DNA of 37,834 bases, from the NCBI GenBank assembly GCA_027334165.1, contig DAHWXM010000004.1, positions 1 through 37,834 on the forward strand. The letters run 5' to 3'. The first letter of the stretch is position 1. Each line of letters starts with the position of its first letter. Position numbers and translations under genes: made by a program. Shown one piece after another: positions 2 to 8,433 of this stretch. The notes beneath the pieces are model-generated. The model did not search any database and was not told the DNA's origin. It was given only the letters and a program-made list of their open reading frames with translations. Origin of the DNA: Microcaldota archaeon (GTDB lineage Archaea > Micrarchaeota > Micrarchaeia > Micrarchaeales > CABMGC01).

Positions 2-1123
2 AACGCGGGGCTGTCCACGACGTCGACTTCATTCTCGATAACCCCAGGAAATTACTACTACTGCGCATCAGTGACGGATTCCTCCTCGTCTCAGCAGACG
101 TCCAGTTCGGGGTCTGGCGTCTCTTCCACTACGTCAACCTCCCTTTCCACAACATCGACCACATCAACGTCAACGTCAACTTCGACATCTACAACCTCGA
201 CGTCATCCTCGACCACCGTGTCTACGCTAACATCGACGTCATCAGTCACATCAACGTCCACGATCCCTGCCACAAACGCAGCAACGAACGGCGTCACTAG
301 CGGTACCACCAATGGGGCCACAAACGGTGCGACAAACTCCGCCACAAACGCAGCAACAAACTCAGCAACCAATTCGGGAACCAATGCTGCCACAAACTCA
401 GCAACCACCCAGAGTATTCAGGGATGCTATTATTCTGGAACATGCACTGGTATTACATTTACGTCCTGCGCGAGTGGATATGTCTGCAGCACGGGCGCCA
501 CCCTATGTTCTGGAAGCTGCTGCTTCCACCAATGCGTACAGCAGACCACCACCGTCGCAGATAGTGACGATACAAATGGCGTTGAACAGACCTGCTATTC
601 GGGAGCCGCAGATTACGATGAAGTCCCATTGCCTAAGTGCACCACCGTGGCCACCAATGCCGCTACCAACGCAGCCACAAATGCGGCTACCACTACCAGC
701 GGCGGCTGCGTGCTGGGCAACGACACCGTCACACTCTACGGCGGCGCGACTGTTCCTGTTTCCTCGCTGTCCGCCGGAGACTATGTGCTCGGCTATGACA
801 CGCTGACTAATTCCACAGAGGCGCTTCGCGTCACCATGGTGACCGAAACCAATGCGTCCACCATTGAGTACATAAACGGCAACATCGGCGTGACTCCATT
901 TGACCAGCCGATGTACGTTCGCCACGACGCGTACACCGGATGGATTGACAACCCGTCCGCGATTCAGCCGGGCTGGCAGCTGTTCCAACCCGTCAATGGA
1001 GAATGGGTGACAGTGCAAACCGTAGCATACAAAGGAGGCAACTTCTCTGTGTACAACGTGTACACTAATTCCACAAACACATATGCGGTTAACGGCGTCT
1101 TGGTCGATACAAAGATAGCGTGA
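2..1123 (+). CDS. Surface protein with C-terminal Hint domain, 5' end outside window
   Basis: The frame is open from base 2, so the gene is truncated by the window edge; the first in-frame ATG (71) is not the real start, because the residues before it (ending YYYCASVTDSSSSQQ) match the middle of the paralogue at 1248. Visible parts in order are a Ser/Thr tract, about eleven four-residue ATN-type repeats, a Cys-rich segment (about 12 Cys), a second short ATN run, then a Hint domain starting at the Cys encoded at 707-709. Hint hallmarks are GGG-C at the junction, CVLGNDTV (block A-like), GVTPFDQP (block B-like, with the usual His missing), and a final VYNVYT...NGVLVD strand pair (block F/G-like) without terminal His-Asn. 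I infer a secreted or anchored protein that cleaves or ligates itself through its Cys. Family confidence is good, activity is untested. Confidence 0.8.
   Translation, partial: NAGLSTTSTSFSITPGNYYYCASVTDSSSSQQTSSSGSGVSSTTSTSLSTTSTTSTSTSTSTSTTSTSSSTTVSTLTSTSSVTSTSTIPATNAATNGVTSGTTNGATNGATNSATNAATNSATNSGTNAATNSATTQSIQGCYYSGTCTGITFTSCASGYVCSTGATLCSGSCCFHQCVQQTTTVADSDDTNGVEQTCYSGAADYDEVPLPKCTTVATNAATNAATNAATTTSGGCVLGNDTVTLYGGATVPVSSLSAGDYVLGYDTLTNSTEALRVTMVTETNASTIEYINGNIGVTPFDQPMYVRHDAYTGWIDNPSAIQPGWQLFQPVNGEWVTVQTVAYKGGNFSVYNVYTNSTNTYAVNGVLVDTKIA
127..411 (+). repeat. Low-complexity Ser/Thr and ATN-repeat coding tract
   Basis: TCAACG/ACATC-like codon runs encode an S/T-only tract, followed by 12-base units (consensus GCCACAAACNNN) encoding xATN tetrads. 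It probably forms an extended, possibly glycosylated stalk. The antisense frames over it (Val/Asp/Glu-rich) are shadows. Confidence 0.85.
707..1120 (+). repeat. Hint-domain coding repeat, copy 1 (copy 2 at 2958-3368)
   Basis: The DNA from the junction Cys to about 990 is nearly identical to 2958-3241, with mostly third-position differences. Similarity falls in the last third. This marks a recent tandem duplication or ongoing gene conversion between the two genes. Confidence 0.85.
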
Positions 1124-1217
1124 CAAAGAACAATGCACCTTGATCAACCACGGGTTTCCGATGCGCTTTTCAATCACTACACGTGCCTAAAGCCGATACA
1201 AAGCGAACGAACATATC

Positions 1218-1226
1218 TATTTAAAA
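1218..1226 (+). promoter_or_regulatory. TATA-like box of the Hint surface protein gene
   Basis: TATTTAAAA is centred about 26 bases before the ATG at 1248, the spacing expected when transcription starts at or next to the start codon. Confidence 0.6.
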
Positions 1227-1247
1227 CCCCGCTTGGATTAGTAAAAC

Positions 1248-3371
1248 ATGGCACTAAAGCATGCGAACCAAAGAAACGCACGATTCGCGCAATTCAAACC
1301 GCGTAAATCCTCTAATGCCCAGGCCGCGATAGAGTATCTCACCACTTACGGGTGGGCGATCCTCATAATCGCGGTGGTGGTATCGCTCCTCTACGCCTTT
1401 GTCTTTGCTCCGTCGTTCATAACTCCTCAGAAATGCTCATTCGCTTCTGGCGCCAATTGCAACGATGTTATAATAGGCACCTCGTCAACGGCATCTAAAA
1501 TCGTACTGCTTCTATCAAATTCGCAACAGTACTCCATGGACACTCCGAGAATGACCATCAACATGCCTGACGTGGGCAATGTGACCGGCACGTGCTATCC
1601 CTCCTACGTGCTCCCTGGAGGATCAATCATTTGCAATGCCACCGTGCCTTCTAGCTACTCGAAGGGCTCACTGGTCTCGAGCACAGTTTACCTGAGCGGG
1701 AAACCGTGCGACCCGAGGAACACGTCAACATGCTCCTCGTCGCCTATCCGAACGTATACCGGTGCGATCGCGGCCCACGCACAACCAGAGCTCACATCCC
1801 AACCAATAACGGTTTCCCTTTTTGCCTTCAATTCAACACCGAGCATAAATGACGGTCAGACCGCGATAATAGCGAAGGTGATGCTGTTGGGCTATCCTCT
1901 GTCTGGCGCAACCATTAACTTCACCGAAAGCGGCGGTGCACAGTATGCACTAGTGCCCCCAGAAGCGTCGACAGACTCCCGCGGCGAGGCCATAAGCTAC
2001 CTGTCCGGATCAAAGACGGGGCCTGTCACAGTTAATGCCTCGTTTGCCGGGCACGTATCATCAATAGTTGTCGACTTTCAGCCACAGAAGTACTACACCA
2101 CGCAGCAGTACACCACGATAGGGACTTCCAATGGCACGTACACCACCCAAAACTATGCCGCGCTGTGCTCACCATCAATCGCATTTTCCAGTCCCGCTAC
2201 CATAACGGTGTCATGGTGCGGCGGCAATCCGTTGTATTTCGTGACGCTGCGGGACGGGACATCTCCTGACTGCGCGCAGGACACGAATGTGGTAGCTACG
2301 AATTCTGGCGTGCCATCTACATCAACGTCGTTTTCAATATCTCCGGGAGCATACTACTACTGTGCATCCGTTACGGATTCTTCCTCCTCTCAGCAGACCA
2401 CCAACACGAGCTCCGGGATATCATCAACAACGTCCACATCGATTTCCACTACTTCAACGACTTCATCGTCCACCTCAACATCAACGTCGACAACGTCCAC
2501 ATCTACCTCAACATCCCTGACGTCAACCTCTACCTCGACGTCCCTTTCATCTTCATCGACCACATCAACAGCTGCCACAAATGGTGCCACAAACGGCGCT
2601 ACCAACGGAGCAACAAACGCGGCAACCAATGCCGGCACCGTGCAGCATCTGGGGACGTGCACGTACACCACCCCCGTAGGAATACTCGGATGCCCGTCAG
2701 GAGCTTACAATTCAACTGAAGAGACGTTCCTGTCCTGTTCATGCTTTGACACTCCCCCTGGCGGGTCCTGCCAGCCCCCCTCCTATCCTGTGGGTTATGG
2801 ATACTCCGGCACCTACGAAACATGCGTTTACCCCACGACTACCACCATCGCTGCCACAAACGCAGCAACTAGTTCCGCCACAAATATAGCCACCAACGGT
2901 GCCACAAACTCTGCCACAAACTCCGCAACCAACTCCGCAACCATCGCGGGCGGTGGCTGCGTGCTGGGCAACGACACCGTCACACTCTACGGCGGCGCGA
3001 CTGTTCCTGTTTCCTCGCTGTCCGCCGGAGACTATGTGTTCGGCTACGATACGTTGACTAATTCCACAGAGGCGCTCCGCGTCACCATGGTGACCGAAAC
3101 CAATGCGTCCACAATAGAATACATAAACGGTAACATCGGAGTGACTCCATTCGACCAGCCGATGTATGTTCGCCACGGCGCGTACACCGGATGGATTGAC
3201 AATCCGTCCGCAATCCAGCCCGGATGGCAGCTGTTCCAACCCGCAAATAAAGGATGGGTTTCGGTATCGTCAATCACTTACAAGAAAGGACGCTTCGGTG
3301 TGTACAACGTGTACACGAATTCAACCAACACCTACGTGGTCGATGGGGTGCTTGTGGACATGAAGTCATAA
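1248..3371 (+). CDS. Pilin-like, Ser/Thr-rich surface protein with C-terminal Hint domain
   Basis: This 707-residue protein is the full-length paralogue of the truncated first gene. Residues 1-24 are basic; residues 25-55 (QAAIEYLTTYGWAIL onward) form a class III signal/type IV pilin-like membrane segment. An Ig-like (bacterial Big-type) domain lies near residues 185-275, followed by a Cys-containing domain ending YYYCASVTD, a Ser/Thr tract, ATN four-residue repeats, a Cys-rich segment unlike that of the paralogue, another ATN run and a Hint domain at residues 571-707 starting GGG-Cys571. The Hint domain is nearly identical to its neighbour's but ends DMKS, without the His-Asn needed for intein C-terminal cleavage. 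The ATG lies 26 bases after a TATA-like box, suggesting a leaderless mRNA. Hedgehog-like thioester chemistry, giving cleavage or covalent attachment of the exposed part, is inference. Confidence 0.85.
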   Translation: MALKHANQRNARFAQFKPRKSSNAQAAIEYLTTYGWAILIIAVVVSLLYAFVFAPSFITPQKCSFASGANCNDVIIGTSSTASKIVLLLSNSQQYSMDTPRMTINMPDVGNVTGTCYPSYVLPGGSIICNATVPSSYSKGSLVSSTVYLSGKPCDPRNTSTCSSSPIRTYTGAIAAHAQPELTSQPITVSLFAFNSTPSINDGQTAIIAKVMLLGYPLSGATINFTESGGAQYALVPPEASTDSRGEAISYLSGSKTGPVTVNASFAGHVSSIVVDFQPQKYYTTQQYTTIGTSNGTYTTQNYAALCSPSIAFSSPATITVSWCGGNPLYFVTLRDGTSPDCAQDTNVVATNSGVPSTSTSFSISPGAYYYCASVTDSSSSQQTTNTSSGISSTTSTSISTTSTTSSSTSTSTSTTSTSTSTSLTSTSTSTSLSSSSTTSTAATNGATNGATNGATNAATNAGTVQHLGTCTYTTPVGILGCPSGAYNSTEETFLSCSCFDTPPGGSCQPPSYPVGYGYSGTYETCVYPTTTTIAATNAATSSATNIATNGATNSATNSATNSATIAGGGCVLGNDTVTLYGGATVPVSSLSAGDYVFGYDTLTNSTEALRVTMVTETNASTIEYINGNIGVTPFDQPMYVRHGAYTGWIDNPSAIQPGWQLFQPANKGWVSVSSITYKKGRFGVYNVYTNSTNTYVVDGVLVDMKS
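2405..2640 (+). repeat. Low-complexity Ser/Thr and ATN-repeat coding tract
   Basis: This has the same architecture as the tract at 127-411: Ser/Thr codons, then five or six xATN tetrads. A further ATN run lies at about 2851-2945, immediately before the Hint domain. Confidence 0.85.
2958..3368 (+). repeat. Hint-domain coding repeat, copy 2 (copy 1 at 707-1120)
   Basis: This is the second copy of the Hint segment, starting at the TGC of Cys571. The middle (Cys-rich) parts of the two genes are not similar, so the homology is confined to the flanking modules. Confidence 0.85.
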
Positions 3372-3389
3372 CCGACCGTGCATCACACC

Positions 3390-5117
3390 TCACGGTTTGT
3401 AATACACGTTGCCTGTGTACGTCGGGTCTATCGGTTGCAAACTCGACAGCGTCCCATTTCCATAGTTATCGGCCACCAGCGTGAAGTTGCACTCGGACGG
3501 ATCGAAGGCCCATGTCTCGTTGATCGACCACAGGTTATAGCTGTTTATTGTCTGTAGTGCATCCTGTGATGGGATGACCAAGTACGTGTTGTCCGGTATG
3601 CCAGCGCAGGTTGGGATAAAGAGCCCCCCGTACGCACCGTTGTCGTACTCGTTTGCGTAAACGTTCTGCGGATATCCCATATAGTAATCCACGTAGAACG
3701 GCATAAGGGCAGGTGCAAGGAGCGTGGCATTGCTGGTGCCTGCAGCGGCCTTCACCTCATCCGCAACGGCCTTCATGTACTGCATCGAGTTGTGGTTGTA
3801 AAGATAGAAGAACCTGTCTATCTGGTACGATGTGGCAAAGAGCAGGAAGATGATCAGTGCTGCCGCAGCGATTCTCAGCACCCGTCCGTTCGATCCCGCA
3901 GGTCCCTTCCCAATACGCTCCCCGATGAAGTCAGAAAGCGCGGCTCCAACGATGAGCATGAGCGGAACCGCGACTATGGCGGTGAACCGCATCAGCTTGT
4001 ATATCGGGAAGTAGTGAGTTATGCTCATGCTACCGAATTCCATGTACGCCACAAGGAAGGCACCCCAAACAAGAAGGAATCTTGACTTCTTGTCGTTAAG
4101 TGCGAGCAATGCTATTCCGGAGAGTGCGGCCGCATACCCGAAAAAGCCAACATCATTCAGATTTATGCTGTTGAAGCTAAAGAGACTCTGTGCCAGCGAG
4201 GAAAGACCTTGTGCAGCGGCACCGAAGTCGAGATGCACCAGCGGGGACAGTATGCCCGCCATCAGACCGTACGGGAAATAGCCGTTTATGTAGAAACTAA
4301 GGCTCGGGTTTGTGTAGAATATCTCGTCCGGGCCTCCAGCAGCACTGTAGTAGCTATTGGTCAAATTAAGCTCGTAGAATGGCTTGCCGTGCGCCAGCGC
4401 CATGTTTGCGTATCCCATGACCGCTACCGCGGTCATGAATCCCACAAAAACGGCGAGGGACATGTAGTCCAACGCTATCCCTCGCGCTTTTAGGGAGCTG
4501 TACAGTCCGTCCGCCACTATGTAAAAGGCGTAGAATACGAAGTAAAGATATGCGAGCGGATTGGCCAGCGCGCCAACAAATCCCGAAGCTCCGGAAGCTA
4601 GAAAGTACCACACGTTGCGCTTCCTCTTTCCGTATATGAACAGCAGCACTGACAGGCTGAGGAACATCACAAGCGGAAGCATGGGATCCGGAGAGGTGTT
4701 GAAGCGCAATGACACAGGGTATATGGCAAACAGCAGCGCCGCTATGAGCCCCGTTCTACTGCCATGCAGCTCCCGACCTATCAGGTACGTTATCATTATT
4801 GTTATCGCATAAGCGAACAGCGCCCATGCTCCGGCTCCGAGATCGGTGTATCCGAAGACGGCTATCGAAAAGGCCAGTGGGAAGAGCATCGTTAGCCTGA
4901 GTGAGAATATGTTTATGTTCTCAGAGAAGGTGCCGTTGAGGATACTGGGCACGAACGCAGTGTAAGACACATCGTCACCGTAGAAGCTCACTCCCTTCAT
5001 CAGTGACAATGAAAGCGCAACCCCGAACACCACGATCAGCGCAAGGTAGATGCATTCCTTATCTTTCGCAATCGCGGCGATTTTGCGGCGCATCCTATCC
5101 TGCGTTTTTACCTGCAT
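3390..5117 (-). CDS. GT-C family membrane glycosyltransferase (ArnT/PMT-like)
   Basis: The 575-residue protein has about ten or eleven hydrophobic helices in the N-terminal two thirds, then a soluble C-terminal domain of about 120 residues. An acidic pair in the first outside loop (GDDVSY, about residues 47-52) fits the catalytic acidic residue(s) of polyprenyl-phosphate-sugar dependent GT-C enzymes (PMT/ArnT, PMT_2-like). It would move a sugar from a lipid carrier to protein or lipid on the outer face of the membrane. It lacks the WWDYG motif of the oligosaccharyltransferase AglB. It is the last gene of the surface operon, 10 bases after the beta-propeller gene, with a GGAGAGG stretch before the ATG. 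Donor and acceptor cannot be told from sequence. Confidence 0.75.
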   Translation of the reverse strand: MQVKTQDRMRRKIAAIAKDKECIYLALIVVFGVALSLSLMKGVSFYGDDVSYTAFVPSILNGTFSENINIFSLRLTMLFPLAFSIAVFGYTDLGAGAWALFAYAITIMITYLIGRELHGSRTGLIAALLFAIYPVSLRFNTSPDPMLPLVMFLSLSVLLFIYGKRKRNVWYFLASGASGFVGALANPLAYLYFVFYAFYIVADGLYSSLKARGIALDYMSLAVFVGFMTAVAVMGYANMALAHGKPFYELNLTNSYYSAAGGPDEIFYTNPSLSFYINGYFPYGLMAGILSPLVHLDFGAAAQGLSSLAQSLFSFNSINLNDVGFFGYAAALSGIALLALNDKKSRFLLVWGAFLVAYMEFGSMSITHYFPIYKLMRFTAIVAVPLMLIVGAALSDFIGERIGKGPAGSNGRVLRIAAAALIIFLLFATSYQIDRFFYLYNHNSMQYMKAVADEVKAAAGTSNATLLAPALMPFYVDYYMGYPQNVYANEYDNGAYGGLFIPTCAGIPDNTYLVIPSQDALQTINSYNLWSINETWAFDPSECNFTLVADNYGNGTLSSLQPIDPTYTGNVYYKP

Positions 5118-6636: not shown

Positions 6637-8433
6637 TCACGGATTATATAACGAAGTCCCATTTTTATAACTTACTATCCTGTAAATCCCGAAGGTTATG
6701 TTCCATCCAAATCTGTCATACGGCGCCTGTGCGACGGGCTCCATTGTGAAGTTGCTCATTATATGGCTGCACCCGAGCTGCGAGTTGTCGTAACCCCCTG
6801 CGCTCTCGTTCAGCGTGCAGCTAACGCTGTAATCAAAGTACAGGCAGCCTCGCGACATGTTAAGCAGCGTGCCTTTGTAGTTGTCTAGGAATATCCAGTC
6901 GGCGTAGATGTTGCTCTTGTTTAGCACGTACCACAACGGGGGCTTGTATGTGAGCACGAAGCACCCGTTCGGTATCTTCTGGTAGTTTGCCATTATGAAC
7001 TGTTGATCGAAGCGCTCCGCCGCGAAGGGATAGACGTCTTGCGGCGGCTTATGCACGAAAACCGCGAAATCGTACATCGGGTCCAGCATGACGACCACAA
7101 GCAGAGCGCCCAACGCCAACGCGCTCCAGCCATATTTCCTGCGCAGCTTTCCCCGCGCCGGCAGCCTGTTGGCAATGGCCTTCGCCGACTCAACTGTTCC
7201 GAAGGCAGCAAGCATGGCCACAGCCGGAAACGCGCTCATGAAGTATCTTATGTCATCTCCTGCACTGTAGAGTGCACCTCCTGCATAGTACGCAGTGTAG
7301 AATGCAAACACCACGCCAAACCAAACAACGAGCAGCGCCGCAACGCGCCACCTCCTCGCGTACGCGAGGAACGCAAAGCCTATCACAGCAAGCGCCGCGT
7401 ACGTAGTAGGGTACTCGATGTTGTAAGTGTAGTACCCGCGCCCGAAAACGATGCTTCCGAAGCCACCGTACCAGAACTCTACATTCTGCGGTAGGTTCGA
7501 GATGAAGTTGGACACCGAGAATCGCGACTGCATGCTGGCAGCTCCAAATGAGTTGGCGTTCCATGAATTGTAAAGGAAAGCGAGCTGGGGCACTACGAGG
7601 GCCGAAAACAGCACCGCGACGCCGGCGGTTAGCGCCATCCTGCGCTTCCATCCCTTTCTCTTCGAGCTGCTGCCGTACAAGCCGAGTAGAACAACCGTCG
7701 CGACTATTGGCACAACCACTATGGCATCCACCTTCATTATGGTTGTGTACGCCAGCGCCGCAGCCGCTGCAACACCCACAATAAAGTCCCTTTCACGGAG
7801 ATAGGTGAGAAGGAGCGCTACGCCGAGTAGCATCACCGTAAGCTCTGGGGTGTCCAGCACCAGCGATCTGGAATACGTCAGGAAGATTGGCGTCGCCGCA
7901 AACAGGAGCGAAGAGACAAGGGCCGTATTCCAGTCATCAAGCAGCATGCGTGCTATGTAGAACACTAGTATTATGGAAAGTGCAGAAAGGGCCAAGACCA
8001 GCGCGTAGGCGCTGCCGAAGCCCACCCCGACCAGCGCAAAGACCACGCTCAGCATCATTGCCCATCCCGTGGGCTGCTGGAACAACCCGGATGTGCCTGT
8101 CACACAGTGCAGCGGCGAAGAGAAGCTGCATATGCCTATGCTGTTATCGTACAGTATGCCCTTCGCTATGCTCATGTGTATGAACTCGTCGTTGTAGAGC
8201 TGCTGCGTTGGCTGGACAAGAAGCAACTCCACTAAGAGAAAAACGAACACTATACCAGCAAGGTACAGCAGCCTTTCCCTTCCCGCCTCGCGAAAGAGCC
8301 GTCCCATCTTCATCGCAGCTAGCGCAGAGGTGATCAGCATTGCTGCAAGAAGCGCAGCATCGTAAACCAAATACGCGCTGTGCCAGTTGTTGCCAAAAAA
8401 CATCGCTACGCTGGCCAAATTACCCTGTACCAT
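6637..8433 (-). CDS. GT-C family membrane glycosyltransferase (ArnT/PMT-like)
   Basis: This 598-residue protein has around eleven transmembrane helices followed by an outside domain of about 120 residues rich in Cys and aromatics. The loop after the second helix contains QQLYNDEFIH, with the Asp-Glu pair at the place of the catalytic acid of PMT/ArnT-type enzymes, and later TYSRSLVLDTPE fits the conserved second loop. It is distantly similar in layout to the GT-C gene at 3390. It overlaps the end of the beta-helix gene by 14 bases, so the two are probably translationally coupled. The role is likely sugar transfer to surface proteins outside the membrane; substrate unknown. Confidence 0.75.
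   Translation of the reverse strand: MVQGNLASVAMFFGNNWHSAYLVYDAALLAAMLITSALAAMKMGRLFREAGRERLLYLAGIVFVFLLVELLLVQPTQQLYNDEFIHMSIAKGILYDNSIGICSFSSPLHCVTGTSGLFQQPTGWAMMLSVVFALVGVGFGSAYALVLALSALSIILVFYIARMLLDDWNTALVSSLLFAATPIFLTYSRSLVLDTPELTVMLLGVALLLTYLRERDFIVGVAAAAALAYTTIMKVDAIVVVPIVATVVLLGLYGSSSKRKGWKRRMALTAGVAVLFSALVVPQLAFLYNSWNANSFGAASMQSRFSVSNFISNLPQNVEFWYGGFGSIVFGRGYYTYNIEYPTTYAALAVIGFAFLAYARRWRVAALLVVWFGVVFAFYTAYYAGGALYSAGDDIRYFMSAFPAVAMLAAFGTVESAKAIANRLPARGKLRRKYGWSALALGALLVVVMLDPMYDFAVFVHKPPQDVYPFAAERFDQQFIMANYQKIPNGCFVLTYKPPLWYVLNKSNIYADWIFLDNYKGTLLNMSRGCLYFDYSVSCTLNESAGGYDNSQLGCSHIMSNFTMEPVAQAPYDRFGWNITFGIYRIVSYKNGTSLYNP

Follow-up and report, generated by a model that had tools for sequence, protein, structure and literature searches.

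Two genes at the left end of a 37,834-nucleotide (nt) window of DNA (the whole stretch analysed here, contig DAHWXM010000004.1 of a Micrarchaeota genome) lie head to tail on the plus strand and encode stalk-like surface proteins that end in a Hint domain. We propose that this domain, the outer tip of the stalk, belongs to a lineage-specific, remodelled Hint clade which has retained the N-terminal acyl-shift (self-cleavage) chemistry, a reading drawn from sequence comparison to which we give about even odds (probability roughly 0.5).

The stalk tip is predicted to adopt a Hint fold

Searches of the single sequences against Pfam and NCBIfam returned sub-threshold Hint matches or none; Hint (PF01079) was matched weakly, under the curated cut-off (E 1.8e-4 for copy 1, and 3e-3). 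A profile of 18 relatives was then compared with the solved structures in the PDB, giving E-values of 3e-12 for Tetrahymena BIL2 and 1.5e-10 for the C. thermocellum BIL domain (BIL/intein range 3e-12 to 1e-10). The AlphaFold model has a Hint fold (predicted local distance difference test, pLDDT, 92.7; predicted template-modelling score, pTM, 0.86), and its best Foldseek matches were all Hint or intein structures, headed by BIL2 (template-modelling score, TM, 0.86), CthBIL (0.81), mini-inteins and hedgehog (0.75). A first-pass annotation, made by reading the sequence, had claimed that both proteins end in a Hint-type domain; the profile matches and the predicted structure bear this out, the structure prediction that it had named as a check returning the Hint fold. 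We regard the predicted horseshoe beta fold of the tip as settled for practical purposes.

Both window copies end in GVLVD[T/M]K, with neither the C-terminal His-Asn nor a C-extein, as the first-pass annotation had stated, and the protein stops 2-5 residues after the Hint domain. Splicing is excluded because His-Asn is lost, no C-extein follows and the Hint domain ends the stalk protein. The intein or splicing element was rejected as a candidate on the missing C-terminal Asn, the missing C-extein and the position of all four paralogues at protein ends.

Distribution and selection

The window's own genome holds four copies of the Hint-tipped stalk gene. Searching the phylum gave matches in 52/301 genomes, and the strong derived matches fell in two families of one order, in about 29 genomes and 16 genera (tally from the search table). 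Named relatives with the tip include two Micrarchaeota metagenome-assembled genomes and Candidatus Micrarchaeum sp. A_DKE (NZ_CP060530.1), a strain described as Ca. Micrarchaeum harzensis and grown at pH 2.0-2.5 (PMC8975820). No relative was found in the viral contigs scanned with a profile of the Cys group (the group to which the window copies belong, see below), and our literature search found no paper tying Hint domains to Micrarchaeota surface proteins.

Between the Hint domains of the own-genome copies (four domains, pairs where computable) the ratio of nonsynonymous to synonymous substitution rates (dN/dS) was about 0.06-0.19, and purifying selection on the tips is thereby shown by computation on the sequences. 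The similarity to Hint goes beyond chance because of the four genomic copies, these dN/dS values and the roughly 29 genomes with strong matches; chance resemblance was ruled out by selection together with the fold and the profile E-values.

Selection also bears on whether the tips are relics, that is, decaying BIL- or intein-like domains without present function. Decay would fit the disappearance of His and of His-Asn, the existence of two degenerate second domains and an in-frame stop in one relative: the Hint gene of A_DKE (L083) has a single such stop between its N-terminal part and the Ser/Thr stalk, and this copy may be broken or recoded. The dN/dS values contradict decay, as do seven columns invariant across 47 divergent domains and a conserved gene neighbourhood, and we consider a relic highly improbable.

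The active site is remodelled in two clades

We aligned 58 domains with MAFFT and scored their columns: 54 derived domains and four canonical sisters from other families of the class, which keep the block B TxxH and block G VHN motifs. Two second-of-tandem domains (L066, L075), judged degenerate, were left out of the scoring; inspection by eye shows Ser1 lost and Gln in place of Glu. A tree placed the derived domains in two clades, Cys tips (n=7, support 100/99), to which both window copies belong, and Ser tips (n=47, support 85/83). Cys or Ser occupies the nucleophile position in 54/54 derived domains, a pattern that fits a nucleophile, and likewise in 4/4 canonical sisters. Strict conservation of Cys, the check attached to the first-pass claim, was ruled out in favour of Cys or Ser, and the two degenerate domains have lost the residue.

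In the Ser tips, Ser1 is present in 47/47, and the Thr and His of TxxH are replaced by Asp and Glu, each in 47/47 (DxxE). This clade has a median pairwise identity of 38% (28 sequences at <60% identity) and only seven invariant columns, three of which are canonical active-site positions, since S1, D and E are each found in every member. Ser1 is encoded by TCN in 44 domains and AGY in three; the neighbouring stalk columns are unconstrained (column -1 is G/S/C/T/N/A...). In the Cys tips, Cys1, the block B motif TPxDQP and its T and D are found in 7/7, and the replacement of the block B His by TPFDQ that had been read from the window was confirmed, as TPFDQP, in both copies. Which residue lies opposite the block B His in these tips depends on the method (Asp or Gln, MAFFT versus hhalign). 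Since hhalign puts Gln rather than Asp there, the candidate rule that all members have a carboxylate opposite the His stands on weaker ground. In derived tips, [VIAT]D, or T/S at the protein end, takes the place of block G VHN. The tip domains contain 0.4-0.9% His compared with 3.4% in the canonical sisters, and 5.0% Lys plus Arg compared with 10.3%.

Judged from the alignment, the active site is remodelled and not randomly decayed, because dN/dS among the own-genome domains is 0.06-0.19. The earlier description of the domains as splicing-disabled is right in that splicing is excluded, but they are not simply disabled, His having been swapped for invariant residues. Absent from that description were these invariant replacements and the canonical sisters, as well as the tip exchange and tip-partner matching reported below.

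Many Ser-type proteins (L055, L060, L064, L068, L076 and others) carry Hint domains in tandem, two each or, at one locus, three. Most of this duplication looks old, because first and second copies lie in separate parts of the tree, except for L064, whose two domains group together.

Two loci with canonical domains were noted besides. Around position 1571 of L087 (G300), a canonical Hint open reading frame (TGEH, VHN) starts right after a TGA that is preceded by a 522-amino-acid (aa) open reading frame; the TGA probably marks a frame break or recoding. At L088 (965-3667, G120), a 900-aa protein carries a tandem of two canonical BIL-like Hint domains, with Gly-rich borders and HNKGG, possibly a splicing or cleavage pair in a sister family.

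Tips are exchanged between stalks and match partner genes

Within one genus, stalks are 59-64% identical over ~370 aa and their tips only about 28% (Cys-type in the window genome and Ser-type in genome G005). Two stalks of the window genome are about 28% alike in their N-terminal parts and have tips that are 70% identical. Exchange of tips between stalks is shown by these computed comparisons of sequence.

A membrane-anchored secreted protein of family X or Y is encoded within about 35 nt downstream of the tip in 28 of the 35 derived loci with enough downstream sequence. Tip and partner types agree in 28/28 (Cys tips, X3/Y7; Ser 'SF' tips, X3/Y14; Ser 'SV' tips, X1/Y2). Shared descent accounts for part of this match; tip and partners can nevertheless differ on alike stalks, because of the same-genus swap. 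The partner genes gave no informative Pfam match. A modelled partner ectodomain weakly resembles the PknH/TiME sensor/ligand-binding domains (TM 0.43-0.48), a likeness that we do not use as firm functional evidence.

A recognition head would suit both tip exchange and partner matching, and the tips could accordingly be read as non-catalytic Hint domains: no cleavage would take place, and the old pocket (S/C1 with D..E or T..DQ) would be a conserved binding site for metal, glycan, host surface or the partners. The catalytic His and His-Asn are absent clade-wide, an Ig-like, S/T-rich stalk with a tip at its C-terminus is adhesin-like, and the weak PknH-like match of the partner model points the same way. 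Against this, the position that survives universally is the nucleophile, and Cys/Ser interchange is typical of nucleophiles, not of binding residues. We take a non-catalytic pocket to be a serious possibility, short of probable, and hold the same of an adhesive or recognition function for the tip.

Organisation of the two window genes

The features of the two genes and their surroundings are as follows.

2..1123, plus strand: surface-stalk protein copy 1 with C-terminal Hint; open reading frame open at its start, 373 aa, 5' end missing at the contig edge
419..634, plus strand: copy 1 stalk, Cys-rich insert (QGCYYSGTCTG...QTCYSGAADYDEVPLP), from sequence
707..1120, plus strand: copy 1 Hint domain, with the Cys1 codon at 707-709 and TPFDQP (block B) starting at 893
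1217..1228, plus strand: TATA-like element CTATTTAAAACC, lying 20-31 nt before the ATG of copy 2
1248..3371, plus strand: surface-stalk protein copy 2, complete open reading frame, 707 aa
1320..1394, plus strand: putative class III (pilin-like) signal/anchor helix QAAIEYLTTYGWAILIIAVVVSLLY of copy 2, a motif common to many family members
1830..2078, plus strand: Big_1 Ig-like domain of copy 2 (PF02369, E 6.9e-9)
2418..2957, plus strand: S/T- and A/T/N-repeat stalk of copy 2 with Cys-rich insert (2652-2834), from sequence
2958..3368, plus strand: copy 2 Hint domain, with the Cys1 codon at 2958-2960 and TPFDQP (block B) starting at 3144
3390-5117 and 6637-8433, minus strand: genes for a pair of PMT-like glycosyltransferases beside the S/T-rich stalk genes

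Copy 2 runs from a basic N-terminus through a pilin-like AQAAIEYLTTYGWAILIIA helix, Big_1 and a long repeat stalk to the ~138-aa Hint domain at its C-terminus. Taken to the gene ends, the two C-terminal Hint regions span 701-1123 and 2949-3371. The motif expected of archaeal type IV pilin-like (class III signal) proteins, a basic N-terminus, a putative processing site before Q..EY[LM] and then a hydrophobic helix, occurs in copy 2 and many relatives, one of which scores only E 0.17 against PF04021; the window protein did not reach this Pfam family. The pilin anchor proposed for both proteins is supported in copy 2 by the AQAAIEYLTTYGWAIL motif, found in many relatives, and not by a Pfam match, and any such N-terminus of copy 1 lies outside the window because the contig edge cuts the gene. 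The Gly-Gly-Gly said to precede the Cys did not hold for copy 1, in which the residues before Cys1 are Ser-Gly-Gly. The CTATTTAAAACC element at 1217-1228 is a possible leaderless promoter of copy 2. Convergent genes occupy the strand downstream of copy 2, among them the two PMT-like glycosyltransferases, which could O-mannosylate the stalks.

The ~64-aa Cys-rich insert at 2652-2834 is 95% identical to that of the G000:C11 stalk protein, with flanks 61-65% identical, and this difference suggests a recent exchange of the insert between stalk proteins.

Discussion

Hint domains begin with an N-to-S/O acyl shift at their first residue, the only step left without Asn and a C-extein, as in hedgehog (PMC7664689). 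In our proposal the tips would retain this step, moving the acyl group from N to S (or N to O) at the Gly-Gly/Cys (x/Ser) junction. Hydrolysis would follow, or transfer of the stalk end to a nucleophile (water or a hydroxyl being the likeliest), which would shed the tip or leave the stalk end esterified; an amine would be a less likely acceptor because amines are protonated at pH ~2. More tentatively, carboxylate/amide residues may do the job of the His, the reaction taking place extracellularly, at a pH near 2, because under such conditions protons can be shuttled by Asp/Glu but not by His. Binding or regulation of the tip may be the role of the partner proteins.

If the glycine at the stalk's C-terminus were handed over, as a (thio)ester, to an acceptor located on the partners, the S-layer or the host cell, the stalk would be a self-crosslinking attachment organelle. 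A Gly-rich junction, the conserved C/S nucleophile and the co-occurring membrane-anchored secreted partners would accord with such covalent coupling, for which hedgehog offers a precedent in cholesterol modification after an N-S acyl shift (PMC7664689); Micrarchaeum co-cultures have filament-bearing host contact sites (PMC8975820). No acceptor emerged from the analysis, no acceptor-recognition region follows the Hint domain before the protein ends 2-5 residues on, amines are protonated at pH 2 and the partner folds give no catalytic hint, so that we judge coupling of this kind improbable.

The tips share their fold and length (~138 residues) with the BIL domains of Tetrahymena BUBL1 (BIL2, 6y75) and C. 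thermocellum (2lwy), which likewise have an N-terminal nucleophile after a flexible junction. Unlike these, the window-type tips have no block B TxxH His, no C-terminal His-Asn (type A) or related cleavage residues and no following extein; the active-site positions of derived tips hold Ser with D..E or Cys with T..DQ. The hedgehog Hog/Hint domain is also C-terminal on a secreted protein and lacks His-Asn, which limits the tips, like hedgehog, to the first (N-terminal) step; the archaeal tips differ in having neither TxxH nor a sterol-recognition region after the Hint domain. Inteins in general have a C-terminal Asn, a nucleophilic +1 residue and a C-extein, none of which is present in the window tips. 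The block B His normally assists, and some inteins without it compensate and can be active (PMC6333167; PMC7664689). Among these, the CDC21-1 group, naturally without the block B His, illustrates that Hint chemistry can outlast His loss by compensation (PMC6333167), although these inteins splice, have exteins on both sides and use other compensating residues. Sedolisins, acid proteases with a Ser-Glu-Asp site, have Glu in place of the His of the subtilisin Ser-His-Asp site (PMC6278154). By this analogy, and given how little His and Lys plus Arg the tip domains contain, the active site of the tips is perhaps suited to pH 2; the sedolisin parallel is an analogy only, sedolisins having an unrelated fold and being true turnover enzymes, and an acid role of the tips would be by extension.

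Several points weigh against retained cleavage. Several of the inteins studied cannot do without the block B His (PMC6333167), and amide hydrolysis by way of a Ser ester is a demanding reaction when no His takes part. Cleavage is here a prediction from sequence and model, and a binding pocket could account for the conservation of S1/D/E. Replacement of His by a carboxylate is firm only for Ser tips, because of the Asp/Gln ambiguity in Cys tips. Only for the relative A_DKE is growth in acid documented, and its own gene has the in-frame stop. Both window copies, lastly, are without adjacent partner genes, four X copies lying elsewhere in the genome.

A bolder form of the proposal would make the tips a new 'serine-carboxyl' (S1/D/E) Hint class with a Cys/T/DQ sister, pH-gated so as to stay off in the near-neutral cytoplasm and turn on at the acid outer surface once exported, where it would shed or couple the exchangeable tip of a DPANN symbiont stalk with two matched partners. 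As a whole we think this unlikely, though worth stating.

If the tips are active, they would be natural Hint domains in which the catalytic His is swapped for conserved carboxylate/amide residues clade-wide. They would then allow a direct test of the role of the block B His and might yield acid-triggered, histidine-free self-cleaving tags. The Hint-tipped stalk and its two partners form a concrete, conserved three-gene surface system in which to study the attachment of Micrarchaeota symbionts to their hosts.
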